Shown here in pieces: positions 36,334 through 51,618 of a stretch of 64,000 bases of DNA (its first letter is position 1; every line of letters begins with the position of its first letter). Under the pieces are notes generated by a model. That model worked only from the letters and a program-made list of their open reading frames with translations, made no database searches and was not told the origin of the DNA. Origin of the DNA: Leptolyngbya sp. Heron Island J (GTDB lineage Bacteria > Cyanobacteriota > Cyanobacteriia > Phormidesmidales > Phormidesmidaceae); assembly GCF_000482245.1 (NCBI RefSeq), contig NZ_AWNH01000071.1:124001-188000 (forward strand), written 5' to 3'. Made by a program: the position numbers and the translations under genes.

Positions 36334-36400
36334 GATACGCTATCATCAAGTGCCTGATATGCAGGCGTGTCTATTATTAAAGAGGTGATTGATAAAACCC

Positions 36401-38374
36401 ATGGGTCAGGCAGATGTACTGGTGGTTGGCGGTGGCATTATCGGACTTGCGATCGCAACCGAACTTCGTCAACAAGGCGCGACAGTAACCGTACTCAGCC
36501 GTGATTTTAACGCCGCTGCGGGACATGCCGCTGCTGGGATGTTAGCTCCTAGTGCTGAAGGACTTACCGGTTCATTGTGGGAATTGAGCCAGCGTAGCCT
36601 CGCTCTCTATCCAGACTGGAGCCGTAAGCTAGAAGAGCTGACAGGTGAAGATGCGGGCTTTTGGCCCTGTGGCATTCTGACTCCGCTTTTTACATTGCCA
36701 GCCGTTCCTGCGGCCAACAATCTACTCAGTCGAGAGGCGATTCATAGCTATCAGCCTGATCTCAATCCTCAGGTTGTGGGTGGTTACTGGTATCCCGACG
36801 AAGGCCAGACCGATAGCCGGGCGCTGCTCAAAACCCTACGCGTCGCTGCCCAGGAGCTGGGGGTGGAGATTCAGGAGGGGGTGAGTGCTGAGGCCTTTTT
36901 ACAGCACAATCACCGTATCACTGGTCTATTGACTACTAACGGGCAGCAGCAGGCGGGGCATTACGTATTAGCCGCTGGTGCCTGGTCCAGTGAGCTGTTA
37001 CCGCTCCCAGTGAAACCCCGCAAGGGGCAAATGGCTGCTTTACTGACGCCACCGGGCTCTCCCTACCAACTCAATCGTGTTTTGTATGGTGAGCATACTT
37101 ACATTGTGCCGCGTCGAGATGGACGGATTGTGTTGGGGGCGACCAGTGAAGACGTGGGGTTTACGCCCCATAACACGGCAGCTGGTGTCGCCCAGTTGTT
37201 AAATGAAGCGATGCGGCTATACGCCCCTTTAGCAAACTTTCCACTACAAGAATGTTGGTGGGGATATCGTCCCAAAACCACCGATGAGGCTCCCATCCTA
37301 GGACCCAGTCAGTGTGACAATCTCACGCTAGCAACCGGTCATCATCGTAATGGTGTGCTACTGGCACCGATTACGGCCAAACTGATTGCTGAATCGATTC
37401 AGGGGAAACCTGAGCCGCTGCTAGAGGCATTTCATTGGGATCGGTTTATGGGAGCATCGGCTGCGGCCTCTTCTACTTCCTCCTCCTCTATTGCGTCGGG
37501 TTTCGATGACTCAACCCGACCTACGTCTTTTCAACTTGCTACACCAATGCACACTCTTTCTGCTCCTCCGGTTACGACTGCTGAAGATTCCCTGGTTATT
37601 GCTGGACGGACTTTCTCGTCTCGGTTGATGACGGGGACGGGTAAATTTGACAACTTTGATACGATGCGGGCTAGTCTGGCCGCTAGCGGTAGCCAAATTG
37701 TGACGGTAGCTGTGCGTCGGGTGCAGACCAATGCTCCTGGACATGAAGGGCTGGCCCAGGCAATTGACTGGAACAAAATTTGGATGTTGCCCAATACGGC
37801 TGGATGTACCAGTGCCGATGAAGCAATTCGGGTAGCCCGTTTAGGCAGAGAGATGGCAAAGCTGTTGGGGCAAGAAGACAACAACTTTGTGAAATTAGAG
37901 GTGATTCCAGATTCAAAATATTTGTTGCCTGATCCCATTGGCACACTACAGGCGGCAGAACAACTTGTAAAAGAAGGGTTTGCTGTACTTCCCTATATCA
38001 ATGCCGATCCGATTTTGGCCAAGCATCTTGAGGAAGCCGGGTGTGCGACAGTGATGCCGTTGGGCTCTCCCATCGGGTCAGGTCAGGGGGTGCGCAACGC
38101 GGCTAACATTGGCATTATTGTTGAGCAAGCTAAGATACCGGTGGTGGTAGATGCAGGGATTGGGAGTCCCAGTGAAGCGGCGGAGTCTATGGAACTGGGG
38201 GCAGATGCGTTGTTGATTAATACTGCGATCGCAAAAGCTCAAGACCCTGTGAAAATGGGTCGAGCCATGGGATTGGCGACTGAGGCAGGACGCTTAGCCT
38301 ATTTAGCCGGTCGTATTCCAGTGAAAGCCTATGCCAGTGCTAGTTCTCCGATCACAGGTACGATTACGGGCTAG
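36401..38374 (+). CDS. thiO-thiG: Fused glycine oxidase ThiO and thiazole synthase ThiG
   Basis: A 657-residue bifunctional thiamine-biosynthesis enzyme. Residues 1-345 or so are ThiO, a flavoenzyme (GxGxxG motif [20 protein letters not shown]) that oxidises glycine to dehydroglycine. A Ser-rich linker (about 348-385) leads to ThiG (about 395-655), with the Schiff-base lysine in [13 protein letters not shown] and the phosphate-binding loop QGVRNAANI. The fusion is known in several cyanobacteria. ATG 36401 is preferred; the frame opens at TTG 36389. No THI element is seen upstream, so this gene may escape the TPP control seen on thiC. Confidence 0.95.
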
Positions 38375-40145: not shown

Positions 40146-40610
40146 TTAGGTGGCTTTCACCAAGACCAAATCGCCATCGATAATCGCCTCATAGGAGGCT
40201 AAGGGGTCGGTAGCAGGACCAGTAGCAACGCTGCCGTCAGTGTTGAACTTTGAGCCATGACAGGGACAGGCAAACGCGTCATCTTTCCACTCGACGCTAC
40301 AGCCCTGGTGAGTGCACATGGAGTTAAGAGCGATGACGCTATCGGCAGCGGCTGGATCGCGAATGACAATCACAGGGCCAGCAATAAAGCCTTTTTTGGC
40401 TAGATAACCATCGCTGTCTAAATCGGTGACGGTACCGAGAGCGGCAAATCCATCTTCTCTCGGTGTTTCATCGATCGTGGCAGCTGGAGCATCATCAGGT
40501 TCTGGGGCTTCAGAGGTAGTTTCTGTGGGATTGCAGGCTGCGATCGCAACTGGCAAAGATGTTGCCAATAGTCCCAACCCAAACAGGTTGCCAAACTCAC
40601 GACGATTCAT
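40146..40610 (-). CDS. Tat-exported Rieske [2Fe-2S] lipoprotein
   Basis: The 154-residue protein has an N-terminal MNRREFGNLFGLGLL (twin-arginine signal) and a lipobox-like ending (VAIAACNP), so it is probably exported folded and lipid-anchored. The Rieske cluster is bound by CTHQGC (Cys, His) and CPCHGS (Cys, His); the second Cys of each block gives the disulfide found in high-potential bc/b6f-type Rieske proteins. It lacks the transmembrane tail of PetC and is short. It is the last of three leftward genes after ResB and CcsA, which suggests it serves the same electron-transfer system as the cytochromes at 44.9-49.6 kb (inference). Confidence 0.88.
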   Translation of the reverse strand: MNRREFGNLFGLGLLATSLPVAIAACNPTETTSEAPEPDDAPAATIDETPREDGFAALGTVTDLDSDGYLAKKGFIAGPVIVIRDPAAADSVIALNSMCTHQGCSVEWKDDAFACPCHGSKFNTDGSVATGPATDPLASYEAIIDGDLVLVKAT

Positions 40611-40681
40611 ATGAAAGTCCTCTCTCTTTTGTTTTTTGAAGTCTGACCTTGTACCTATGGATACCTTGAGAGATACCTTTA

Positions 40682-42364
40682 TTAGGTACTGGTCTCAGCC
40701 GCATGCAAGCCACCCAGCCAACCTTGGTGCCGAATGACAGTAATTAATACAAACAGTAAATCTAAACCGACTACCCCAGCAATCATCAACTCGGAACCAC
40801 CAGTGCCAAAACCATAGCTGTGTAGCCCAGTCCCCAAAACAAAGTTAACGCCATACCAAGCCATCAATACTGCATTAAAGGCGACTACGCTGGCGACGCT
40901 GATGCCAAAGTTGCCAATCCAACCGACCAGGCGACCATGGAGTGGAACCAGGTAGCAGAGCAAAGCAATCAACGCCCAAGTTTCTTTCGGGTCCCAGCCC
41001 CAGAAGCGACCCCAGGAGAAGTGCGCCCAGATGCCGCCCAGGATAATCCCTGCAGTTAACAACAGTACGCCCACCTGCAGCACTCGATAGTTCAGCTGGG
41101 AGAGCAGCTTAATCCGCGATTTAGCATCGGGGGTAAACAGATAGCTACCCAAGGCCACATGGCCCAGCCCTAAGGCCAGGGCAAAACTGGCATAGCTCAG
41201 GGCAATGGTAGGTACGTGAATACTTAGCCAAAAGTTGTCCCTCAGCACTGGCACCAGCGGCGAAATGCTAGGGTCTAGCACCGCTGGCAGGCTGTCTGCC
41301 AGAATCAAACACACTACAGACAAGGGAGCTGCGGCTAGCAAATAGTATTTAGAGCGATGCAAAAGCTCGAACATTAGAGCGATGGCCGCAATGCCAAAGC
41401 CAACCCAAACCACTGATTCATACATATTGGTCACAGGAGGGCGACCGGCAATTTGCATCCGAAGCCAAAAGCCGAAGCTTTGCACAGCTACACCGGCCAC
41501 AAAGGTGCCAATGGCGGTCCAGTACAGATTAAAGGGCTGTACCCACAGGGCTACAAGCATTAAGACAAAAGCAATGCCGTAGAGTTGCCAGGCCTTGGCA
41601 AAGGGATGGAAGTGGTTGAAAAATACCTCGCGTCGCATCACACCATCTGCGGGATAAACGTCAGGGCTAAGAGCGGCTAGGCCATCTTTGAGAGACTGGG
41701 TCATGGGAGCAAGCATAGGCAGATGATCGGTGCCCGACAGAATTGTCTGCTTAACAATTGCAAAGTTGGCTAGCAGTGGCGCGATTGATTCGGCGTCATA
41801 CAGGCTCTGGGCTGCGGTAATACCTACCCACTTGCCTTTGATGTCGCTGGGATGGGGGACAATTGCGATCGCATCATCATCTACCGTATTGAGCATCAAC
41901 TGCAGCCGTTCCTCAATGGTCAGAGCCTCGCGTTCGTCACGAGTCAAATCCTCTTCATCCATCTGCTTCTGATGAGCGGATCTGACCACATCCCCCAATG
42001 GCTGATTTCTCATCAGTGTTTCAAACGAGAAATGTTTTTGTTCTACATCCAAACCCGCTAGCTCTTTTAACGGACGATAGCTGACTAACACAAATGGTTC
42101 TGTATTCCAGTTGCGATTGTTTAGCCATAGAGACATAAACGTCTCCATTGCACTTTCCTGAATGCCATCGTGTTTATAAGTCGTTGCTCCATAAATCTTG
42201 GCAACAGTTTCCTGAGCCACAGTGTCCAGAGGCTTTTTACGCCCTCCCTGCTGCACAGTCATGGTCTCTAAACTGTCTAAAGCAGAGGGTTGAAACTGGC
42301 TGAAGGGCATCGCGATTAGCAATAGCCCAAGACATAAACCAATCGCAAATTTGAGAAGTTTCAT
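40682..42364 (-). CDS. ccsA: Cytochrome c biogenesis protein CcsA/ResC, N-terminally extended
   Basis: The membrane WWD motif GRFWGWDPKETWALI places it in the CcsA/ResC heme-handling family, the partner of ResB in System II cytochrome c maturation. It is 560 residues, much longer than the usual cyanobacterial CcsA of about 330-350; the N-terminal 265 or so form a large region after a signal anchor, with a periplasmic domain. Such extended forms are more familiar outside cyanobacteria, which suggests a separate origin. It is 79 bases downstream of resB and 71 bases upstream of the Rieske gene. Confidence 0.93.
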   Translation of the reverse strand: MKLLKFAIGLCLGLLLIAMPFSQFQPSALDSLETMTVQQGGRKKPLDTVAQETVAKIYGATTYKHDGIQESAMETFMSLWLNNRNWNTEPFVLVSYRPLKELAGLDVEQKHFSFETLMRNQPLGDVVRSAHQKQMDEEDLTRDEREALTIEERLQLMLNTVDDDAIAIVPHPSDIKGKWVGITAAQSLYDAESIAPLLANFAIVKQTILSGTDHLPMLAPMTQSLKDGLAALSPDVYPADGVMRREVFFNHFHPFAKAWQLYGIAFVLMLVALWVQPFNLYWTAIGTFVAGVAVQSFGFWLRMQIAGRPPVTNMYESVVWVGFGIAAIALMFELLHRSKYYLLAAAPLSVVCLILADSLPAVLDPSISPLVPVLRDNFWLSIHVPTIALSYASFALALGLGHVALGSYLFTPDAKSRIKLLSQLNYRVLQVGVLLLTAGIILGGIWAHFSWGRFWGWDPKETWALIALLCYLVPLHGRLVGWIGNFGISVASVVAFNAVLMAWYGVNFVLGTGLHSYGFGTGGSELMIAGVVGLDLLFVLITVIRHQGWLGGLHAAETST

Positions 42365-42443
42365 GGGTGTACTTTGGCTGCAGTGAATAGCAATTAGCGG
42401 AAAAGGGCAACTAAATCGATTATCTCAAAGATTCAAAACTGCC

Positions 42444-44243
42444 TCAGCGGCTAGAAAAAAAACTAAAGATGGGAATTGGGGTAACCGTCTCTTCTTCGGT
42501 AGGTTCAGCGTCAGACGAACCCAAGATGTCGCCGATGAATTTAAGCTTTTTAGCCACGGAACGACCATAAAACATGACGGCTACACCTATTGTTACCATC
42601 ATCGATCCTAACCAGGTCAATCCTGTCACCCACCAGGGCTCGCGCTTAACCTGCAAAGTCGACTGGGCCAAATCACCTGGATTCCAAGAAGCCTGAGCAA
42701 TTTTCCAACCTTGAAACCAAGTTGGATGATTCATCCATACCCGTCGTTCAGCCAGTTCTCCGGTTTGGGGTTCCATCAGGGTGACTAAACTGGTCCACAT
42801 TGCCACAGACTCACTCCCCTCGTTGCGCTCCACAATAAAATCATTGAGCTTAAGGGCAAAGGGCAACTTCATCAGCTTGGGACTAAAGGCGACATACCAG
42901 TCTCCCGTTGTTGTTGCTAGGGTTGTGGGCTCAACCCAGGGAATCCATTGGGCGTGACCATCCTTTGTCGCCACATTAAGGGCAGGCTCTCCACCGGAGC
43001 TCCCTTCAGGTAAGGGCACAACAGCTCGTTCAATCCGTGCTTTTGGCACATATTTTTCCAACGTGATTTCAAAGTCTGCCCAACCTGGTGTTACTGGCTG
43101 GCCCACGGTTAGAGGCCCAGACTTAAATCCCTGGGAGGACTTAGCGGCATAGTGCAGTTCACCAGCAGTATCGACAACAACCTTAAAGAATGCTGCTGGC
43201 TGCGTATCAGTCGAGATCTCATAGCTAATATTGACTGACAGGGGAGTCTCCCCATTTAGCTGGGAGCGGACAGGAGCAAAGTCTGGATTACTGAAAACAA
43301 ACCAGCGCTCAACCGTATCTCCCTGCGATAACTCTAGTTCCACAGCTGGATTGAGCAACTGCTGAGTGACAGTCTCTGGTTGTCCATCGCCATTGAGACG
43401 AAAATCTGGCCAGAAGTCTTTGATAGTGAGCTGAATATTTTCGAGAACAATCGGCTGATTCAAACTGGATTTCACATCTACAGTCTGGGCTTTTCCGGTG
43501 GTTTCAAGCTGTAACGTTCCCCAAACGGCAGTATTTGCTTGAACGACCTCTGTTAACACCTGCCTGAGCTCCTGTTCAGAATTCACCGTTGCAATTTGGA
43601 GTTCGGCAGGACCAATATCCATCCGATCGTAAGCGGCTGGTGCCACTGCTAACCAGCGTTCTAATGCCTGGCCCATTCGGGCACTGTGCAGAGAAAGTTT
43701 GACGGCGGGGTTGTTAACAGCCCCGCCATCTTCGAAGTGAACTGTCTTGATGGCATGGTTGGTGTAGCCGAGTAAGGACAAGTCACCTAGATGGTCAGGA
43801 ACAACGCTACCATCATCCTTAATAAATAGAGATGTTTGTTGCGTCTCCTGCCCAGGCGCAGCTATCTCTAAAAGATCACCCTGCACACGGAGTGTACTCA
43901 CAGGACCACTGTCAGTCCTCGCTAATAGCATGCCTTCAACACTCAGGTGAATAACCGCAGCTGAACCTGCAATGATCACCACTAAACCCCAGTGAGCGAT
44001 CGCAAATCCTACCTTACGGGCACCTTTCCAGGGATAACGCAGCAGTGTAGACAGGCTCAGATTAACTGCCAATAAAAACATTAAAGCGCCAAACCAAGGG
44101 CTTTTATAAATCTCCTGTTGGACAACAGAGCTGCCCACTTCTGATTCGTAAAAAGTTGCACCGATGAGGATAGAGCCGATAACCACCAGCAGAGGGACGG
44201 CCAGTCTAATGGAACCTACAAATTGAATTACTGCAGAGGTCAT
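42444..44243 (-). CDS. resB: Cytochrome c biogenesis protein ResB
   Basis: The 599-residue protein has an N-terminal group of three hydrophobic segments (AVPLLVVIGSILIGATFYES, FGALMFLLAVNLSLSTLLRYPW, GFAIAHWGLVVIIAGSAAVIHL), a long periplasmic domain (about 110-545) and a last helix (LTWLGSMMVTIGVAVMFYG), the ResB/Ccs1 layout. ResB holds apocytochrome and heme with CcsA for thioether attachment. It is the first leftward gene of the divergent cluster. Cyanobacteria need a Ccs1 for cytochromes f and c6, so this copy may be an extra, dedicated set (inference: I cannot see the rest of the genome). Confidence 0.92.
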   Translation of the reverse strand: MTSAVIQFVGSIRLAVPLLVVIGSILIGATFYESEVGSSVVQQEIYKSPWFGALMFLLAVNLSLSTLLRYPWKGARKVGFAIAHWGLVVIIAGSAAVIHLSVEGMLLARTDSGPVSTLRVQGDLLEIAAPGQETQQTSLFIKDDGSVVPDHLGDLSLLGYTNHAIKTVHFEDGGAVNNPAVKLSLHSARMGQALERWLAVAPAAYDRMDIGPAELQIATVNSEQELRQVLTEVVQANTAVWGTLQLETTGKAQTVDVKSSLNQPIVLENIQLTIKDFWPDFRLNGDGQPETVTQQLLNPAVELELSQGDTVERWFVFSNPDFAPVRSQLNGETPLSVNISYEISTDTQPAAFFKVVVDTAGELHYAAKSSQGFKSGPLTVGQPVTPGWADFEITLEKYVPKARIERAVVPLPEGSSGGEPALNVATKDGHAQWIPWVEPTTLATTTGDWYVAFSPKLMKLPFALKLNDFIVERNEGSESVAMWTSLVTLMEPQTGELAERRVWMNHPTWFQGWKIAQASWNPGDLAQSTLQVKREPWWVTGLTWLGSMMVTIGVAVMFYGRSVAKKLKFIGDILGSSDAEPTEEETVTPIPIFSFFSSR

Positions 44244-44952
44244 AGGCGAAAAATCAAAGCACTCGCTGAATGGTTGAAGCTATCAGCTAAGCAACAACAT
44301 TTGACAATCTTTACCGTGATCTGAGGTCTTTTTTGTATACATAGACACAGAAGACATCTGTATCTTAATCGTTTTGCTTGGGATTATTCAAAAAATGAAT
44401 TGATCTGTATCGATATGTGCAAGTGATTGCTAATTTATTAATTATTTAGGGTTCTGAAAATATATTGATTATCTAAATAATTCCGTGCCTGAAGTCCTTT
44501 TCAATTAGGCATTCTAGTTCTATTTTGTTGCATTCAAAAATATCCAAGAATCAATATTTCTCAGGTAAAGAAAGGTTGATTCGGTTTTTGCAAATTTTCA
44601 ATGCATGAAGTGAATATAGGCTTGTTTTTGGTATCTGAGGTCACAAAAAAATAGTGGCGATCGCAATACGGTGATATTCGTATACGTAGATACCGACCCA
44701 TCCCATGTAATTCTTTGCCACCGTCAAAGTGATTGAGCGATAGTCGGTTTTACAGTATTGTTCCGTCTCTTATTCTGTTGATGTCCTGGCAGGGATGTCG
44801 TGGATGCTGAGTTGCCAATCATCACTCAATTTGTTTCAGTGCGTCAGTTAGTTGATTGGAGTTCCCTGGGTGCTTCAGATATCTACGCACATGTTTTTGG
44901 TTTCTTGAAACAAAGCTTGTGACAAAAACTTGTTGACGTGAGACTAATAGGA
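44244..44952. promoter_or_regulatory. Divergent control region between resB and the globin gene
   Basis: These 709 bases hold no supported gene and are AT-rich. Two near-identical 14-mers stand out: GTATACATAGACAC (44335-44348), 92 bases before resB, and GTATACGTAGATAC (44680-44693), 260 bases before the globin start. They agree at 12 of 14 positions and are in the same orientation. The second fits GTA-N8-TAC of NtcA but has no TAN3T -10 box at the expected 20-24 bases, so it is not a good NtcA site. They may be operators of one regulator for both sides. Confidence 0.5.
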
Positions 44953-45951
44953 ATGTCTTTAAACGTAGAGTTGTTAGAGAAAAGTTTCGAACTCGTAAAG
45001 CCTAAGGCTGATGAGTTTGTAGGTAGCTTCTACAACAACCTTTTTACCGATTATCCGGCGGCCAAACCCCTGTTTGAACACTCAGACATGGCGAAGCAGA
45101 AGCAAATGCTCAAAGGTGCGCTGGTTATGGTTATTGATAACCTGAGAAAACCAGAGGTGCTGAGTAATGCGCTGAAAGGGTTGGGCGCTCGCCACGTAAA
45201 GTATGGAGCTTTACCAGAGCACTACCCTTTGGTGGGCAACAGTTTGATAAAAACGCTGGAGCAATATGCAGGTAATGCCTGGAGCCCTGAGCTTAAGGAG
45301 GCTTGGGCCGGTGCCTACGGAGCTATCACTGAACTAATGTTGGAAGGGGCTGACTATAGTGAGGAAGAAGTGGCGCTAGAAAGCTCTCCTGCTCCGGCAG
45401 AGGAAAGTGGTCTTAAGGTTGAACTATTAGAGCAAAGTTTTGCTCTGGTTGCTCCTCAAGCTGATGCCTTGGTGTCGACGTTTTACGACAATCTGTTCAC
45501 AGATTATCCAGATGCTCGTCCCCTGTTTGAGCACACTGACATGGTGAAGCAAAAACAGATGCTGAAGGGCGGTCTGGTAATGGTAGTTGAAAATCTACGT
45601 AAGCCAGATGTTCTAAGCAAAGCACTAAAAGGATTGGGGGCTCGTCACGTGAAGTATGGTGCTCTTCCTGCTCACTACCCTTTAGTTGGCAACAGCTTGC
45701 TTAAGACCCTTGAACAGTATGCTGGCGATGCCTGGACCGCTGACGTCAAGGATGCCTGGGTTGGTGCCTATGATGCAATCACTCAGCTGATGTTGACAGG
45801 GGCTGACTATGATCACCAAGATATTCAGTTAGATTCTCCTGCGGCGACTGTCTCAACTGAGGTGCCAGAAGGCATTGGTATGGGAACAACAGCAGGCATC
45901 ATCGGTGGTAGCGCAGCCGCGTTCATCGTTTTACTGATGGTGTTGCTCTAG
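44953..45951 (+). CDS. Tail-anchored tandem (two-domain) globin
   Basis: Two nearly identical globin domains of the flavohemoglobin/Vitreoscilla single-domain type occupy residues 3-135 and 154-286. In each, the proximal His (GARHVKYG, residues 81 and 232), the B10 Tyr (FYNNLF/FYDNLF, 27 and 178) and the E7-type Gln (49 and 200) are present. A linker then leads to one C-terminal membrane helix (TTAGIIGGSAAAFIVLLMVLL), so both globins should face the cytoplasm. B10 Tyr with E7 Gln is typical of oxygen-binding or NO-dioxygenase globins, but there is no fused reductase domain. ATG 44953 is chosen; a GTG at 44938 would add five residues. It heads the rightward cytochrome genes (22-base gap). Confidence 0.92.
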   Translation: MSLNVELLEKSFELVKPKADEFVGSFYNNLFTDYPAAKPLFEHSDMAKQKQMLKGALVMVIDNLRKPEVLSNALKGLGARHVKYGALPEHYPLVGNSLIKTLEQYAGNAWSPELKEAWAGAYGAITELMLEGADYSEEEVALESSPAPAEESGLKVELLEQSFALVAPQADALVSTFYDNLFTDYPDARPLFEHTDMVKQKQMLKGGLVMVVENLRKPDVLSKALKGLGARHVKYGALPAHYPLVGNSLLKTLEQYAGDAWTADVKDAWVGAYDAITQLMLTGADYDHQDIQLDSPAATVSTEVPEGIGMGTTAGIIGGSAAAFIVLLMVLL

Positions 45952-45973
45952 TGTTGGTTGCTTAGAGATTTTG

Positions 45974-46615
45974 ATGGTACGCTCTTTGAGGCAAAAACTA
46001 GGTAAGGTGTTCTCGCTCAAGACAGGTATCATTCTGGCTTTGGTGATTCTACTTGTGTGGGTTTCAGCGGCTTTTGCCTTAGACAAAAAGGAGGTTTTTC
46101 TACCTGGGGAAACTTCTGAGGGGCATCACTTGTTTGAAGCCTCCTGTGCCTCTTGTCATGAGGGGTTTAAACCTGTTAGTAATGACAACTGCACACGTTG
46201 TCACCAAGCTGAATTAACGGATGATTTGCATGGGGTGAAAAAATTCCGCGATCCGCGTTGGGCAGAATATCGTGAGCGTGTGGATGTCTTGACTTGTACC
46301 GCTTGTCATAATGAACACGTTCATATGTTTGGTCGAGGTGTACATCTACAGCCAGATCTGTGTATGGCTTGTCATGAAGAACTGACCCTGACCCAGCTTA
46401 AGAGCCATGAAGGGTTTGACCCCGATGGTTGCTGGACGGCTGGCTGTCACAACTACCATGACCATCGCACCATATCCACAGGATTTTTACGGCAGAACAT
46501 GGGGGCTCCGGAGATGTTGCCTGTGCAGGAGCTACCTGATCGGGTGATAACTACGTCGCTGGAAGTTGCGCCTAAACCGAATCTCCAGCAGGAGTTTTTG
46601 GGAGGTAGCTCATGA
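45974..46615 (+). CDS. Exported multiheme cytochrome c (about five hemes)
   Basis: The 213-residue protein has an N-terminal signal/anchor segment (TGIILALVILLVWVSAAFAL) and five heme-binding motifs: CASCH, CTRCH, CTACH, CMACH and CWTAGCH (a C-x4-CH of the kind found in cytochrome c3/c7). Extra histidines such as NEHVHMF and HNYHDH could be distal ligands. There is no CxxCK, so it is not a NrfA-type nitrite reductase. It must be in the periplasm or lumen, where ResB/CcsA attach heme. ATG 45974 (a TTG at 45971 is just before it). It overlaps the next cytochrome gene by four bases (ATGA). Confidence 0.9.
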   Translation: MVRSLRQKLGKVFSLKTGIILALVILLVWVSAAFALDKKEVFLPGETSEGHHLFEASCASCHEGFKPVSNDNCTRCHQAELTDDLHGVKKFRDPRWAEYRERVDVLTCTACHNEHVHMFGRGVHLQPDLCMACHEELTLTQLKSHEGFDPDGCWTAGCHNYHDHRTISTGFLRQNMGAPEMLPVQELPDRVITTSLEVAPKPNLQQEFLGGSS

Positions 46616-47424
46616 TTGGTCGTCAATTGACGGGGTGGCTACGCTCTCTTTTAGTAATTGGTTTATCTGTCTTACTGATGTTTATTGTAACTCCAATGGC
46701 GAGTGCAACTACACAGCAGGAGTTGGATGATATTACAGAGCTGTGGCAAACCAGTGCTCATGCTCTCAACGATATCAACTGTGCTAGCTGCCATCAAAAT
46801 AATGAGACCAAGGAGTTTGTTGCCGTCCCTGATCACGAAACCTGTCGGTCATGCCACGAGCAAGCTGTAGACACATTCTTATTAAGCAAACACGGTATTC
46901 GCTTGTTGGAAGGGGACTCTCCCCTGACACCAGCTATGGCCAGACTACCCATGCAACATGAGGCCATGCAGAAGCAAATGAACTGTAATGCCTGTCATAA
47001 CGTTCATTCCGCTAACACGACAGAAGCATCAGTAGATGCTTGCCTGACTTGCCACAACGATAATCACTCTTTGAATTATCAGAATTCAAGGCATGCCGAA
47101 CTGTTTGCTGCAAGTCAAGAATTGCCACGACCTGGGCCAGGGGCTGTCAGTTGTTCAACCTGTCACTTACCTCGTGTAGTTCATGGTCAAGGCGATAACG
47201 CTGTGGTCAAGGTCAATCATAACAACACCTACAACCTCAAGCCGCAAGATCGCATGGTGGGTGATGTGTGTATGAGCTGTCACGGTATTGAGTATAGCTA
47301 CAACAGTATTTTCGATCCTGAGCTGGTCGAAGCCAATTTTGACCGACCTCCTAACCTTGAGATGGAGACCTTTGAGCTTATGAAGGCTGCTGAGGCCAGG
47401 AGGACGGGCAATACCTCTGAATAG
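46612..47424 (+). CDS. Exported hexaheme cytochrome c
   Basis: The 270-residue precursor has a signal peptide (LVIGLSVLLMFIVTPMASAT) and six CxxCH motifs: CASCH, CRSCH, CNACH, CLTCH, CSTCH and CMSCH. The spacing recalls doubled-CxxCH and hydroxylamine-oxidoreductase/c554-type cytochromes, but no enzymatic subfamily is recognised and no CxxCK is present. The last part, MSCHGIEYSYNSIFDPELVEANFDRPP, looks like a conserved tail. Its start overlaps the previous cytochrome stop (ATGA), so the pair is made together in fixed ratio. Confidence 0.9.
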   Translation: MIGRQLTGWLRSLLVIGLSVLLMFIVTPMASATTQQELDDITELWQTSAHALNDINCASCHQNNETKEFVAVPDHETCRSCHEQAVDTFLLSKHGIRLLEGDSPLTPAMARLPMQHEAMQKQMNCNACHNVHSANTTEASVDACLTCHNDNHSLNYQNSRHAELFAASQELPRPGPGAVSCSTCHLPRVVHGQGDNAVVKVNHNNTYNLKPQDRMVGDVCMSCHGIEYSYNSIFDPELVEANFDRPPNLEMETFELMKAAEARRTGNTSE

Positions 47425-47559
47425 CGCACTGTTGTTATTCAGAATCCTCTGTGTGGAAAAGCTGCGTTCAGGTTGAAATCTGTAGTTTCTTCTACAGAAA
47501 AAACCAATCCTGGACGTGGACAAGATTGCAATATCCGGATGTACCAGGAGATAGTTTAA

Positions 47560-48222
47560 ATGTTGATAAGTTGGATTCAGCGTATTCGCGCTAGAACAAT
47601 AGCATTGCTAGGTTTGGCAGCTGCCGTTTGTTTTACTGCTGTTGCTTGCAGCGGTGGTGGCTCTACGGTAGCGACGGCTACAGGTCCTAGCATTTCCCCT
47701 GACCTCGTTGCTGATTACATTCATACTGTGCTAGCAGCTGACCGTACTGCTTATACTAAGCACGTTGTTAACCGTGTTAAAACTCTTGAGGGTAAGGCTA
47801 AGGACGCAGGTGTCCTTGATGTTGAGTCCACTGAGGGTTGGCAACAAACCGATGGTATTCCTCTGCCTGCGCAAATGTTTCGTCTGGGTTCTGAGATTGC
47901 CAACGAGTCTGGTTACTTTACCTACAACTTGATTTCTACCTGGTATATCAACGATAACCACGGACCCAAGAGTGACTTTGAAACAACTGCTCTAGCGGAA
48001 ATGGAAGCGAGTGGTGAGGCCTACAAGGACTATCAGGAAGTGGGTGGTCAGGCATATTTCTCTGCCATGTACCCCGACAAAGCAGTTGCTGAGGCTTGTG
48101 TGAGTTGTCATAACACTCATCCTATTCATCTTGAGCGCTATCCCGATAAGCAATTTGAGATGGGTGAAGTTATGGGTGGTGTTGTTATCAACATTCCTGT
48201 TGAAAGCATGCCTGCTGCTTAG
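47560..48222 (+). CDS. Tll0287-like (DUF3365) monoheme cytochrome lipoprotein
   Basis: The 220-residue precursor has a lipobox (CFTAVACSGGG), so it is membrane-tethered on the outer face. One CxxCH (EACVSCHNTHP) near residue 185 and the upstream pattern YIHTVLAADRTAYTKHVV ... GIPLPAQMFRLGSEIANE match the Tll0287-like/DUF3365 family, a c-type heme protein with a PAS-like fold described in Thermosynechococcus. Family members are thought to sense or carry electrons. It is 135 bases after the hexaheme gene. A strong hairpin follows it (48253-48284). Confidence 0.88.
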   Translation: MLISWIQRIRARTIALLGLAAAVCFTAVACSGGGSTVATATGPSISPDLVADYIHTVLAADRTAYTKHVVNRVKTLEGKAKDAGVLDVESTEGWQQTDGIPLPAQMFRLGSEIANESGYFTYNLISTWYINDNHGPKSDFETTALAEMEASGEAYKDYQEVGGQAYFSAMYPDKAVAEACVSCHNTHPIHLERYPDKQFEMGEVMGGVVINIPVESMPAA

Positions 48223-48252
48223 GGAGCTGGATTTTATAAGTCCAAAACTTGT

Positions 48253-48284
48253 CCGTATAGGCGTTCTATGGAACGCCTATACGG
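48253..48284. other. Perfect 14-bp hairpin between the heme lipoprotein and cytochrome b genes
   Basis: CCGTATAGGCGTTC (48253-48266) pairs fully with GAACGCCTATACGG (48271-48284) over a four-base loop (TATG). Downstream bases are CAAAAGATAAGG, with no T-run, so this is a weak intrinsic terminator; an mRNA-end or attenuating structure, or an operator, is as likely. It may limit expression of the genes from 48470 relative to the cytochromes. Confidence 0.65.
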
Positions 48285-48469
48285 CAAAAGATAAGGCCTA
48301 ATTGAATCCCCATTCCTTATGGATCTTTGGTTGCTGATGCCTTGAGCGAGCTTTGAGTAGCTGATTTCTGAGGTAATTCTTCTGATATTAGGGATAGTGT
48401 TGTTGGCTTTACCGATAGTCTATCCCTAATGCTCTAATCTTTACTGTTACTACTTGCTACCTAGGGGTA

Positions 48470-49063
48470 ATGAAGCCTAAGTTTTCTACGCTAATTTTAT
48501 TGACGCTCCTAAGTGCATTGTTGTTAGTGCCCTTTGTAGTGAGTCCAATTTATTTGGAGGCCTTGCGCAGCCGCTCGATAGAGCTACATCAGTTCATTCG
48601 TGGGGAAATCTACAAACAAGTGACAGGGTATGTGGCCCTGGTGTTTGTTGTTTTTGAAATGCTGTTATCTTTACGGAAGCGAGGTCGGAGCTGGCTCGGT
48701 AAACTTAAGCTGCCGGGTTCTGTTATTTGGTGGCGCAGTGTGCATATTTTTCTTGGTGTTGGGTTGCTAGCTATTGTCGCGGTACATACCATCGGTGCGA
48801 CTGGTCTTAACTTCAATTCTTTATTTTTGTGGGTGTTTTTTGCAGTTACCCTTTCAGCACTAGTAGGAGTAGTGGCAGAAACAGGAGTATTAGAGTCGCC
48901 GCGCAAGATTTTTGGGGTGCCGGGAAATAAGGATCTAGCTTTAACCAAGGGGCCTTTGATTCGCAATATGCGTGCTATTTGGCTACCTACACATATCTTT
49001 TTAGTCAGTGTTTTTATTCTGATGCTGGGGGTACATGTGTTTCTGGCTTATTACTATCGCTAA
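48470..49063 (+). CDS. Five-helix membrane diheme b-type cytochrome
   Basis: The 197-residue protein has about five membrane helices (about 7-27, 50-67, 90-110, 115-136, 172-194). Helices three and five each carry a histidine pair 14 residues apart: H92/H106 and H175/H189 (H-x13-H). This is the arrangement that holds two stacked hemes across a membrane in cytochrome b and ferric-reductase-type proteins. No quinol-site PEWY is seen. I infer that it moves electrons between the outer-face cytochromes and the cytoplasm or quinone pool. It ends 16 bases before the thioredoxin gene. Confidence 0.75.
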   Translation: MKPKFSTLILLTLLSALLLVPFVVSPIYLEALRSRSIELHQFIRGEIYKQVTGYVALVFVVFEMLLSLRKRGRSWLGKLKLPGSVIWWRSVHIFLGVGLLAIVAVHTIGATGLNFNSLFLWVFFAVTLSALVGVVAETGVLESPRKIFGVPGNKDLALTKGPLIRNMRAIWLPTHIFLVSVFILMLGVHVFLAYYYR

Positions 49064-49078
49064 GGGAGCTTGAGGTTG

Positions 49079-49561
49079 ATGGTTTTTACCGCTAAGGAAA
49101 GGTTGGCTAACCCGTCAGTCAAAGTGCTTGGTGCTGTAATTGCAGTTCTGATGGCTGCATTGGTGACGTTGTTGATTACTCGTCCCGCCGCAACGACGAC
49201 GAGCTTTACGCCACTGTCTGGACTGATGACGCTTAAGTCGATGGCAGCTGAGGCTGTCTCCTATGAAGATGCGATCGCATCCTCAAATCCCATACTGATA
49301 GAGTTCTACGCCGACTGGTGTACTACGTGCCAGGGTATGTCCTCCACCATGGCTGACCTGCATCAGCAATATGGCCAAACCATTAACTTCGTTATGATAG
49401 ATATTGATAACCCTCAATGGGCAACCCAGGTGGCAGATTATGGCGCGTCTGGCGTCCCTCAATTCACCTTGCTTAATGCCCAACATCATGAGGTTAAAAC
49501 GTGGGTGGGCAAAGTCCCCAGCCCCATCTTTGCAAATGTCTTCGATCAGCTGCTCGGATAG
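49079..49561 (+). CDS. Membrane-anchored thioredoxin-like protein (TxlA/HCF164/CcsX type)
   Basis: The 160-residue protein has a membrane helix (VLGAVIAVLMAALVTLLIT) and a thioredoxin fold with the active site EFYADWCTTCQGM (CTTC) and the cis-Pro in GVPQFTL. Its pattern resembles cyanobacterial TxlA and chloroplast HCF164, which keep apocytochrome cysteines reduced for System II maturation. I infer the same role here for the nearby multiheme cytochromes. ATG 49079 is preferred because AAGGGAG stands ten bases ahead; a TTG at 49070 is in frame. A small membrane-protein gene follows 14 bases later. Confidence 0.85.
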   Translation: MVFTAKERLANPSVKVLGAVIAVLMAALVTLLITRPAATTTSFTPLSGLMTLKSMAAEAVSYEDAIASSNPILIEFYADWCTTCQGMSSTMADLHQQYGQTINFVMIDIDNPQWATQVADYGASGVPQFTLLNAQHHEVKTWVGKVPSPIFANVFDQLLG

Positions 49562-49575
49562 GAGATGCTACAGCG

Positions 49576-49794
49576 ATGACACTACTCGATCGATTTCTCA
49601 GACTATTAGAATTTTTAGAATCTGCCCAAGAGGTGTTTGCGTTTCTCACAGCTCCGATCGGTCTGTCCGGGGTGCTGGCTATTTGTCTTTACTTTCCGAT
49701 TCAGACTCTAGGGTGTGACCCATCCGCAGCAGCTACCCTCGCTTGTACAGTAGCTCTCACCTTTTTCTGTTTAGTTGAAAAACCCGATTTCTAA
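49576..49794 (+). CDS. Small membrane protein ending the cytochrome operon
   Basis: ATG 49576 opens a 72-residue frame with two hydrophobic segments (FAFLTAPIGLSGVLAICLYF and AAATLACTVALTFFCLVE). The ribosome-binding sequence TAGGAGATG lies before it. It is 14 bases after the thioredoxin gene and abuts the convergent pentapeptide gene with no gap. Function is not recognised; two cysteines (LGC and LAC) lie near the second helix. Confidence 0.6.
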   Translation: MTLLDRFLRLLEFLESAQEVFAFLTAPIGLSGVLAICLYFPIQTLGCDPSAAATLACTVALTFFCLVEKPDF

Positions 49795-50640
49795 CTATCT
49801 GAACGCTGGAACTGCCACATCAGGTAGATATTCAGTAGGATCTTGACGGTTCCTGGAGATCCCTATCGCATCAGTCAACAAAGTGTTGGTGAGGGTTACA
49901 CCTTGCAGATTTGCTCCGGTTAAGTCAGCGCCTGATAACTTAGCATCCGTTAAATCTGCGCTGCGTAAATCGGCATTTTGCAGATTCGCTCGCTGTAAAC
50001 AAGCGCCCTGTAGATTAGTGGCTGTAAGGTCAGCGCTTCGAAAACACGCTTCCGTAAAGTTTCCATGGCTGAGGTTGCTGCCCTCTAAACAAGTGGCGGT
50101 AAAGTTTGCTTTTCTACCGAGAACCTGTGAGAGATTACTCCAACTGACGTCTGCCATTGTCAATTGGGTTTCTGTCAATTGAGCTGTTGCCCAGTTAGTC
50201 TGAGCTAAACAAGCACCGCTAAAATCGGCCTTAGCAGCCCAAGCTCCCCAAAGCTGAGCCTTGGCAAAATTAGCGTCCTGAGCCGATACCTCACTTAAGG
50301 TGGCACCATTCAACTTAGCTTGGGCAAAATTTGCTCGCTCTAGATTGGCCGCTGTCAAATTAGCGCAGCTCCAATCAGCTCGACTTACATCTGCTTCAGC
50401 CAAATCAGCCCAAAATCCCTGGAGCCAGATGGCAACCGTATCTTGCAAGTGGGTGCCTGTAAAAATAGCACCACTAATATCGGCCCAAATGAGACTGCTT
50501 TTAGACAGGTGACTACGCCTAAAATCTAAGCCGCTGAGGTTGGCTTGATAAAAATCAGCACTTTTAAGGTGAATACTGCAGAAACTACGTTCGGCGCTGC
50601 GATACCGTTGCCAAAATGTCTGTATATCCATTGAACTCAA
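49795..50640 (-). CDS. Pentapeptide-repeat protein
   Basis: The 281-residue protein is almost wholly tandem A(D/N)LxX repeats, such as LRSADLTDAKLSGADLTGAN, which fold as a right-handed quadrilateral beta helix. Four-residue sides are visible from about residue 20 to 260. Some members mimic DNA or inhibit gyrase; others are of unknown role, and they are numerous in cyanobacteria. No signal peptide or membrane segment is present. ATG 50640 or 50631 may be used. A second member is 51 bases upstream on the same strand. Confidence 0.9.
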   Translation of the reverse strand: MSSMDIQTFWQRYRSAERSFCSIHLKSADFYQANLSGLDFRRSHLSKSSLIWADISGAIFTGTHLQDTVAIWLQGFWADLAEADVSRADWSCANLTAANLERANFAQAKLNGATLSEVSAQDANFAKAQLWGAWAAKADFSGACLAQTNWATAQLTETQLTMADVSWSNLSQVLGRKANFTATCLEGSNLSHGNFTEACFRSADLTATNLQGACLQRANLQNADLRSADLTDAKLSGADLTGANLQGVTLTNTLLTDAIGISRNRQDPTEYLPDVAVPAFR

Positions 50641-50691: not shown

Positions 50692-51618
50692 TTATTTAGG
50701 TAGGTTTAGAGCTCCATTTTGTTTTAGCCAAGTAATCTGAGTTGCAGTTAAGCCTTGAACGTCAGTAAAAATAGCGCCTGCGACTTGGGCATCGGTGAAG
50801 TTAACCGCTGTCAAGTTGGCATTTTCAAGGTTCGCTTGCTGCAAGTTCACACCTGCTAAATTAGCGCCAGCAAGATTAGCCCCCTCTAGCTGAGCACCCA
50901 TCATAGATGCATCAGTCCAGTCAGTTTCAATCAAACTAGCTCCATTCAATGTTGCCCAGTCAGCCTGGGCTTCCATCAATACGGCACCGTCTAGCTGTGT
51001 TTGCTCCAGAAGGGCATTGAGCAAGTTAGCTCTAGTTAAATTAGCGCCATTCAAGTTAGCTTCGCGTAACCGAGCTGCCTCCAGGTCAGCTTGTTGCAAA
51101 TTCGCACTCCGCAATGTTGCACGATGCCAGTTGCTGCGAGTCAGATTAGCGCCTTCAAAGACTGCTTCACTAAAGTCAGAATCAGTCAGCTGAGCCTTGA
51201 CTAGATTTGCCCAACTGAAGCGAGTGCGATGGCAAATGGTATTGGATAAATCGGCCTGGGTCAATGTGGCAAATGATAGGTCAGCTTCAGTGAGATGTGC
51301 TCCATGGAACTTGGCTTTAGGTGCCTGTAGTTCCCGGAAAATACCCCGTTCTAAACGAGCACGGGTCAATTCAGCCGCATCCAATCGGGCTTTATCAAAG
51401 CGAGCGTCTGCAAGTACTGCTAGAACTAGGGTGGCTTTCGAAAAGTCAGTACCTTCGCAGGACGCCCCGGTCAAATTTGCCTGCCGTAGATACGCATGGG
51501 CAAAATTCCCTCGGTCCAGTGCGGCTCCTCCTAGATCTATCTTGCTCAGCTCAGCTCGACGCAACGATTGCTGATGGCTAACCTTGGAGAGCACTTCGTT
51601 GACGGTAAGCTGAGCCAT
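50692..51618 (-). CDS. Pentapeptide-repeat protein
   Basis: The 308-residue protein has pentapeptide repeats from about residue 25 to 290 (GANLAGANLAGVNLQQANLE is a clear run near the C-terminus) and a short N-terminal part, MAQLTVNEVLSKVSHQQ. It seems to be a tandem relative of the next gene downstream (49795-50640), probably by duplication. There is no targeting signal. No role can be read from the sequence. Confidence 0.9.
   Translation of the reverse strand: MAQLTVNEVLSKVSHQQSLRRAELSKIDLGGAALDRGNFAHAYLRQANLTGASCEGTDFSKATLVLAVLADARFDKARLDAAELTRARLERGIFRELQAPKAKFHGAHLTEADLSFATLTQADLSNTICHRTRFSWANLVKAQLTDSDFSEAVFEGANLTRSNWHRATLRSANLQQADLEAARLREANLNGANLTRANLLNALLEQTQLDGAVLMEAQADWATLNGASLIETDWTDASMMGAQLEGANLAGANLAGVNLQQANLENANLTAVNFTDAQVAGAIFTDVQGLTATQITWLKQNGALNLPK

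Follow-up and report, generated by a model that had tools for sequence, protein, structure and literature searches.

A Candidate Nitrogen-Controlled Redox System Joining Globins, Multiheme Cytochromes and a Diheme Cytochrome b in Leptolyngbya sp. Heron Island J

The DNA analyzed here, referred to as the window, is a stretch of 64,000 nucleotides from the genome of Leptolyngbya sp. Heron Island J (8.06 Mb in 119 contigs), positions 124,001 to 188,000 of contig NZ_AWNH01000071.1, and at its positions 40146–49794 lie ten genes, in two divergent sets, that seem to constitute a single redox system built from globins, multiheme c-type cytochromes and a membrane cytochrome b. All ten open reading frames (ORFs), which a first-pass annotation made from the sequence alone had read as an undescribed electron-transfer system, were confirmed in place, two of their starts having been adjusted. 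The minus strand encodes a Rieske [2Fe-2S] protein of 154 amino acids (aa) with a Tat-type start and a lipobox-like Cys (40146–40610; PF00355, E 1.3e-13), an extended CcsA of 560 aa (40682–42364; PF01578) and a ResB/Ccs1 of 599 aa (42444–44243; PF05140), the latter two being a second System II copy. The plus strand encodes a tandem globin of 332 aa with a C-terminal hydrophobic tail (44953–45951; two PF00042 stretches, tail segment 314–332), the five-heme cytochrome c “C5” of 213 aa with an N-terminal hydrophobic segment (45974–46615; PF14537, E 3e-6), the six-heme cytochrome c “C6” of 270 aa with a signal-like N-terminus (46612–47424, overlapping the C5 gene by 4 bases; PF14537, E 8.5e-11), a Tll0287-like (sCache_heme) monoheme lipoprotein of 220 aa (47560–48222; PF11845, E 1.1e-20), a diheme membrane cytochrome b of 197 aa, “CytB”, with two H-x13-H pairs (48470–49063), a membrane-anchored thioredoxin-like protein with a WCTTC motif, 160 aa from its ATG (49079–49561, within an ORF from 49070; PF00085, E 1.6e-16; hydrophobic segment 16–34), and a small membrane protein of 72 aa with hydrophobic segments (49576–49794). 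The best globin start is the ATG at 44953 rather than the GTG at 44938, and the last gene is the ORF beginning at 49576, which 14 aligned sequences preserve in this form, rather than the 97-aa ORF from 49501. Pfam matches above cut-off comprise Rieske, Cytochrom_C_asm, ResB, Globin (two stretches), Cytochrom_c3_2 (both multihemes), Tll0287-like and Thioredoxin, and going by such matches known families cover eight of the ten parts; the window’s diheme b protein and small protein had none at E 0.1.

That these genes belong together is indicated by a comparison within a set of 59 related genomes (the window’s own included), 21 of which (again counting its own) carry a C6 relative, the loci of the other 20 having been fetched. 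The annotation had staked its single-system view on relatives with these cytochromes also having the globin and the b-type gene, and wherever the contig reaches far enough they do: the globin adjoins C5 in 16/16 cases (the window and 15 others; contigs L031, L037, L038, L045 and L046 end before it and were left out), and CytB is present in 19/19 (L039 and L047 being left out likewise). Most loci have the two halves in divergent orientation, and in three (L044, L055 and L073) the ResB half has been moved or turned, still within about 12.5 kb. Because the set stays together across families and rearrangement, its linkage appears to go beyond chance, and the ten genes are judged to behave as one system. 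Hosts include Vasconcelosia, cf. Phormidesmis LEGE 11477, a Moorena metagenome-assembled genome, Pleurocapsales LEGE 10410 and Hyella patelloides, most of which we take to be marine and benthic. ResB, Rieske, thioredoxin and the small gene were not seen in the 20.8-kb Hyella locus, and in both Hyella and LEGE 10410 a ResB (54–55% identical) is found elsewhere; in LEGE 10410 this ResB is separated by 704 bases from a divergent globin that the edge of the stretch truncates, for which reason the usual layout may there have been split by the assembly.

In the maturation half, the extended CcsA (109–120 bits in a Pfam CcsA domain search) occurs in 19 of the 21 C6 genomes versus none of the 38 others, the two C6 genomes without it being one whose contig ends just past C5 (G003) and one that is 61% complete (G033). 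A housekeeping CcsA (over 200 bits) is present in 51 of the 59 genomes, and 17 of the 19 genomes with the extended type hold both (two lesser CcsA fragments, in G055 and G010, were left aside); ResB, in turn, adjoins CcsA in most relatives whose contig reaches. Given this distribution, beside a housekeeping CcsA, ResB and the extended CcsA are best regarded as a second, dedicated System II set, which agrees with the annotation’s proposal that the cytochromes have a maturation set of their own.

Across 386 genomes sampled evenly over the phylum, the window’s own among them, C6 was found in four, CytB in six and the CcsA extension in seven, the same four genomes (G000, G008, G260 and G405) carrying all three. 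The two extras in the CytB and CcsA-extension lists are decayed remnants: in G107 (locus L071) the CcsA has a stop at codon 135, the first 26 residues of CytB lie 1.3 kb from the rest, the ResB is shortened (open for 468 codons, about 128 residues missing), and globin, C5, C6 and the Tll-like gene are all absent from about 29 kb, while G258 (L072) has kept CcsA, thioredoxin and the small gene together with a CytB end bearing a stop. The seventh extension match, in G412 of another class, is weak and partial. Multiheme cytochromes of the one family covered, PF14537, occur in 16 of the 386 genomes (the same four, all of the window’s class, and twelve of other classes), which for this family at least bears out the earlier remark that cyanobacteria seldom have multiheme c-type cytochromes. 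The c3-type multihemes of the other classes and the G412 extension relative possibly represent a source or a parallel of the system. Among plasmid records, CytB had no match, C6 had one weak match (Ruegeria, E 6e-3), and three records covered at least 80% of the extended CcsA, namely those from Emticicia, Parabacteroides and Prevotella, the last of which we take to be a member of Bacteroidota, as would then be all three hosts. On the Emticicia plasmid (L076:7661–20645) the extended CcsA is encoded within a 3087-base gene, close to a Rieske gene and two genes of the cytochrome c3 family; this Bacteroidota set bears a faint resemblance to the present system.

The heme motifs are invariant among the relatives aligned. 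In C5, four motifs beginning at C58, C73, C108 and C130 are CxxCH and the one at C153 is CX4CH, all present in 17/17 aligned sequences (window included), and the six CxxCH of C6 are invariant in 18/18 (window included), so that the heme counts given by the annotation stand. Conserved His outside the motifs at least equal the hemes in number: six for five in C5 (six invariant and one more in 16/17) and six for six in C6 (five invariant, plus H203 in 17/18). Each C6 heme could thus have two His, and such a supply of His in both cytochromes is what electron carriers would show. C6 resembles the DmsE-family decahemes (NCBIfam E 2.7e-14, 53 of 192 bits), and its profile matches, over part of the length, the HAO-like 6h5l (E 2.3e-7) and NrfA chains (E 5.3e-5 and 7.1e-5); its AlphaFold2 model is of low quality, with a mean predicted local distance difference test (pLDDT) of 43. 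The hallmark of NrfA is a CxxCK catalytic heme in a protein of about 480 residues, and the nitrite-reductase chains matching the C6 profile are 439–525 residues long versus 270 for C6, which, having six CxxCH and no CxxCK, was ruled out as an NrfA.

CytB, for its part, has two H-x13-H pairs (H92/H106 and H175/H189) that are invariant in 20/20 members, as the annotation would have it. Its AlphaFold2 model has six helices (pLDDT 65) and places, with middling confidence, each pair on one helix (85–110 and 160–195); conserved basic residues R69, K70 and R71, along with K160 and R168, precede the His-pair helices or stand at their start. As basic residues tend to lie on the cytoplasmic side (the positive-inside rule), H92 and H175 would be near the cytoplasm, and H106 and H189 near the outer face. 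Taken together, the 20 members match 15 Pfam families up to E 10, and no cytochrome b/b6 family is among these. Against the b561 and DUF4405 profiles the window protein stays below cut-off (0.21 and 0.42), the best values among the members being 1.2e-3 (20/20 matching at E 10) and 3.3e-5 (19/20), which makes CytB at best a distant b561/DUF4405 relative. Foldseek returned no match under E 0.001 for the model, and VIA-align returned mixed helical bundles with Z up to 8.2, in which the b-type chains 1kqf_C, 6g94_B and 7zxy_A stand amid unrelated rows, for which reason no fold is claimed. As for the remaining redox proteins, the RRxF start (M1, R3, R4, F6) and C26 of the lipobox-like site of the Rieske protein, both in keeping with its annotation as a Tat/lipoprotein, are invariant in 16/16, as are its presumed cluster ligands C99, H101, C115 and H118, and it is closest to the b6f subunit (64 bits, below cut-off); C81 and C84 of the thioredoxin-like protein are invariant in 13/13. 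The Tll-like protein has PF11845 with CXXCH and an invariant lipobox-like Cys30 in 20/20, and shows no candidate axial Cys, since beyond the motif pair and Cys30 there is only C24, preceding Cys30, in 10 of 20; no PDB match was found that would place the axial position. Redox-type Tll0287 proteins, according to PMC12889525, use an axial Cys ligand, and in having no candidate for it the cluster protein is like the NO-binding protein described there.

The globin (PF00042, 5.7e-36) has one strong NCBIfam match, flavohemoprotein PRK13289, by its globin part (6.2e-45; 153.8 of 432 bits, below cut-off), and its PDB matches are single-domain hemoglobins and flavo-hemoglobins; no FAD/NAD(P)H-binding reductase stretch was found in it with Pfam or NCBIfam. 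Residues Y27/Q49/H81 and Y178/Q200/H232 are invariant in 15/15 aligned proteins (L033 and L055 left out) and are presumably Tyr B10, Gln E7 and His F8, i.e., a flavohemoglobin pocket. The annotation’s tail-anchored double globin is borne out in the window and is not universal, as relatives have one, two or three domains (from the 507-aa tailed triple globin of L044:7030–8553 to the single domains of L055, L033 and L073) and two of them are tailless. Two loci (L035:6831–7361 and L037:11976–12503) hold an additional, tailless single globin, 40% identical, between the cytB and thioredoxin genes, and in L056 a 48-residue globin piece is fused to the Rieske reading frame.

What may set the whole operon in motion lies between the two halves. 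Alignment of nine globin–ResB intergenic regions gave a single conserved block, GTA-N8-(T/C)AC-N22-TAN3T, seen in the window as GTATCTGAGGTCAC-N22-TACGGT on the plus strand (44631–44672), 322 bases upstream of the globin ATG, with the CAC variant of the box. An NtcA-activated promoter in its canonical form is GTAN8TAC with TAN3T downstream, GTN10AC being the best-conserved core, as given in PMC9430850 and PMC3898017. With spacers of 21–23 allowed, 12 of 20 loci match, all 12 at exactly 22, and in a scan of spacers from 5 to 45 no other exceeds 4/20; across overlapping 900-base stretches of the same loci the motif occurs in 46 of 2596 (these sites included). The matching loci fall into 6 of 12 lineages, for which the binomial tail at 2% per 900 bases is 5e-8, under a grouping of our own with no tree behind it, and two close groups account for eight of the twelve (six loci of the window’s genus, and L034 with L053). 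This conservation suggests nitrogen control of the operon by an NtcA-type promoter, a site for another CRP-family protein being the lesser option. On the ResB side no site is conserved in the reverse direction. A second, perfect GTAN8TAC palindrome in the window (44680–44693) has no counterpart at the corresponding position of the other loci compared, and the decaying G107 locus has an NtcA-type promoter just upstream of ResB (L071:2045–2086).

How might these parts work together? We lean, tentatively and with rather less than even confidence, toward NO (nitric oxide) dioxygenation: a nitrogen-controlled redox system that would re-reduce membrane-tethered globins across the membrane, letting them turn NO and O2 into nitrate. 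Since heme is attached, and Tat substrates and lipoproteins are delivered, on the outer side, C5, C6, the Tll-like lipoprotein and the Rieske protein should face outward; a C-terminal anchor with no signal leaves a protein inside, which would put the globins there. The membrane sides (by hydropathy and the positive-inside rule), NtcA binding, the direction of electrons and NO as the substrate are all inferred. ResB, the extended CcsA and the thioredoxin-like protein would attach hemes to C5, C6 and the Tll0287-like protein on the outer side, separately from the housekeeping System II; lumen- or periplasm-side electrons (Rieske, Tll-like, C5, C6) would cross via the two b hemes of CytB, which looks like the one protein of the set able to carry them between the faces, and would re-reduce the globins tethered to the inner face. 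As a globin by itself does not oxidise NAD(P)H, it is more likely the end point of this chain than its entry point. The Tyr B10/Gln E7 globins would bind O2 and convert NO to nitrate, the electron chain standing in for the flavin reductase of flavohemoglobins, and nitrogen starvation would turn the operon on via NtcA. According to PMC2323109, any hemoglobin could scavenge NO if its heme iron were re-reduced, re-reduction being limiting. It is nitrogen control and this need for re-reduction that rank NO dioxygenation first, an O2 sink second and outward reduction third, and the promoter lends indirect support to the nitrogen-oxide part of the “NO, another nitrogen oxide or oxygen” of the annotation, with oxygen as a less likely substrate. 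The fuller version, a nitrogen-starvation-induced NO dioxygenase with the photosynthetic or respiratory chain rather than a flavoprotein as its reductase, with tethered globin arrays re-reduced through CytB from the eleven c hemes and the Cache-heme and Rieske lipoproteins, and with NO recovered as assimilable nitrate, is doubtful.

Several observations weigh against the NO dioxygenation reading. Eight of the 20 loci have no strict promoter site: four are one base off (two of these with spacer 23), L057 (Hyella) has box and spacer followed by TATAAG, and L039 (286 bases), L043 and L073 are without any; a further locus not counted among the 20, L097, shows boxes and no TAN3T at 22, and in the window alone one match versus 0.53 expected is within chance. 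The distribution of the system is patchy even within genera, as in G013, which is 99% complete and has no C6 while three congeners do, and the single globins of L033 and L073 have no tail to tether them. NO synthase, tried and rejected as the source of NO, is found in 2 of the 21 genomes with C6 versus 1 of the 38 without. Catalysis by C6 outside the membrane may also occur, given its patchy similarity to HAO-like and NrfA proteins, and stand-alone Tll0287 proteins are given redox rather than NO roles in PMC12889525.

Rather unlikely, if the best of the rivals, is an O2 sink, in which globins would gather O2 at the membrane for reduction by electrons from the outer-face carriers, easing over-reduction of the photosynthetic chain or bringing O2 down under nitrogen scarcity. 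Tight O2 binding would also fit the Tyr/Gln pocket, and several globin domains in a row resemble a capacity device. Among NtcA-related operons in Anabaena, PMC3898017 includes cox2 and cox3. No known O2-reducing metal centre was, however, recognized by Pfam among the ten genes, and there is no tie to nitrogenase, the protection of which was rejected as a general role: nifD scores above its cut-off in 9 of the 21 C6 genomes versus 13 of the 38 others (11/21 versus 14/38 with the lower-scoring fragments of G022 and G033, and of G038, included).

An outward flow, in which electrons would exit via CytB to C5 and C6 and reduce a nitrogen oxide or another periplasmic acceptor, with the globins confined to binding or sensing gas, is unlikely: the nitrogen-type promoter would suit it, as would the partial profile matches of C6 to 6h5l and NrfA, yet C6 has no CxxCK heme, is shorter than the nitrite-reductase chains and has conserved His enough to cap every heme, and neither a porin nor a flavin or NAD(P)H module feeding CytB was found among the ten genes with Pfam. 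Sensing, with the Tll-like Cache-heme protein and the globins reporting NO or O2, is most improbable, for although a Cache-heme domain coupled to a signalling module binds NO, the stand-alone domain is redox-like (both from PMC12889525), no kinase, HAMP, GGDEF or regulator was found by Pfam in the ten genes, a LysR gene, the only regulator among families shared by at least five loci, is present in 5 of 25 loci, and eleven c hemes in two cytochromes exceed what a sensor needs. Two or more unrelated modules brought together by chance, as the ResB lying away from the cytochromes in the fetched Hyella and Pleurocapsales LEGE 10410 loci might hint, can hardly be credited when the LEGE 10410 ResB is divergent to a globin running into the stretch edge, linkage survives relocation in three loci and the extended CcsA so closely follows C6.

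Neighbouring genes add a few further partners. A pentapeptide-repeat family is present in 20 of 25 loci compared, its shared member of about 308 residues having a conserved N-terminal cap (in the window at 50692–51618 on the minus strand, 308 aa). As this genome has 187 PF00805 pentapeptide matches, the cap rather than the repeat is taken as evidence, and at E 1e-13 or better it is found in 19 of the 21 C6 genomes versus 3 of the 38 others, these three (G011, G016 and G031) having no cluster genes within the 10–20 kb around it. A second pentapeptide-repeat gene adjoins the small gene in the window (49795–50640), and the matches to it seen above 50% identity over most of the gene were all in loci of the window’s genus. 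A ChaN-family protein (PF04187, E 3e-71) is present in 10 of 29 loci, adjoining the small gene in seven of them, and is absent from that of the window. Between the Tll-like and cytB genes lies a perfect inverted repeat with 14-base arms (48253–48284); no T run follows it, so that instead of a terminator it might be a small repeat element. Further off, a single ORF (36389–38374) presumably encodes, to judge from its translation, a glycine oxidase ThiO fused to a thiazole synthase ThiG.

Set beside known systems, the cluster shares something with each and coincides with none. Flavohemoglobin (Hmp) and single-domain FHb-like proteins are of the same globin type, whereas the cluster globin has no reductase domain, comes one to three in a row, is mostly membrane-tailed and is tied to c- and b-type cytochromes. 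With System II the cluster shares ResB and CcsA (Cytochrom_C_asm) encoded together and a thioredoxin-like partner, the differences being that this set is a second one, with an N-terminally extended CcsA, tied to a single cytochrome system. The Rieske ligand set, the diheme b with H-x13-H pairs and the multiheme c partners resemble those of Rieske/cytochrome b complexes (b6f, bc1) and, judging from a literature listing, of the anammox R/b complex; CytB, however, is of 197 aa with no Pfam cytochrome b match in 20 members, and the Rieske is lipoprotein-like. DmsE/MtrA-like conduits are approached by C6, yet the cluster has six plus five hemes, no porin, and globins and a maturation set of its own; a Mtr-type conduit is a decaheme and a beta-barrel porin in one operon, and Pfam found no such family among the ten genes. 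The Tll-like protein shares PF11845 and CXXCH with Tll0287 (sCache_heme), from which it differs by having no candidate axial Cys in its mature part and by its membership in this set. No description of the system was found among the papers listed in the open-access literature on cyanobacterial globins (tandem or anchored ones and flavohemoglobins included), multihemes (also with Leptolyngbya), Rieske proteins, Tll0287 and second ResB/CcsA sets, and on three strains that bear the set or lie near it; we are aware of no described system in which a membrane b cytochrome connects globins with multiheme c-type cytochromes. SyNOS of Synechococcus PCC 7335 is, according to PMC6104048, an NO synthase with a globin domain and likewise links a globin to nitrogen oxides in a cyanobacterium; it differs in that NO synthase does not co-occur with the cluster, the globin of which is weakly similar (24–28% identical) to the globin stretches beside the NO synthases of G028 and G035. 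As the assembly is without a defining feature of flavohemoglobin, the Rieske/b complex, NrfA and the Mtr conduit alike, it is, judged by its genes, new as a system made of known parts.

If true, the reading put forward here would identify, for a single group, the reductase that serves a hemoglobin in the cell, a need named in PMC2323109. It would also exemplify a second System II retained for a single set of cytochromes and would link NO chemistry to nitrogen control in cyanobacteria, and the promoter makes this reading directly testable by nitrogen step-down.

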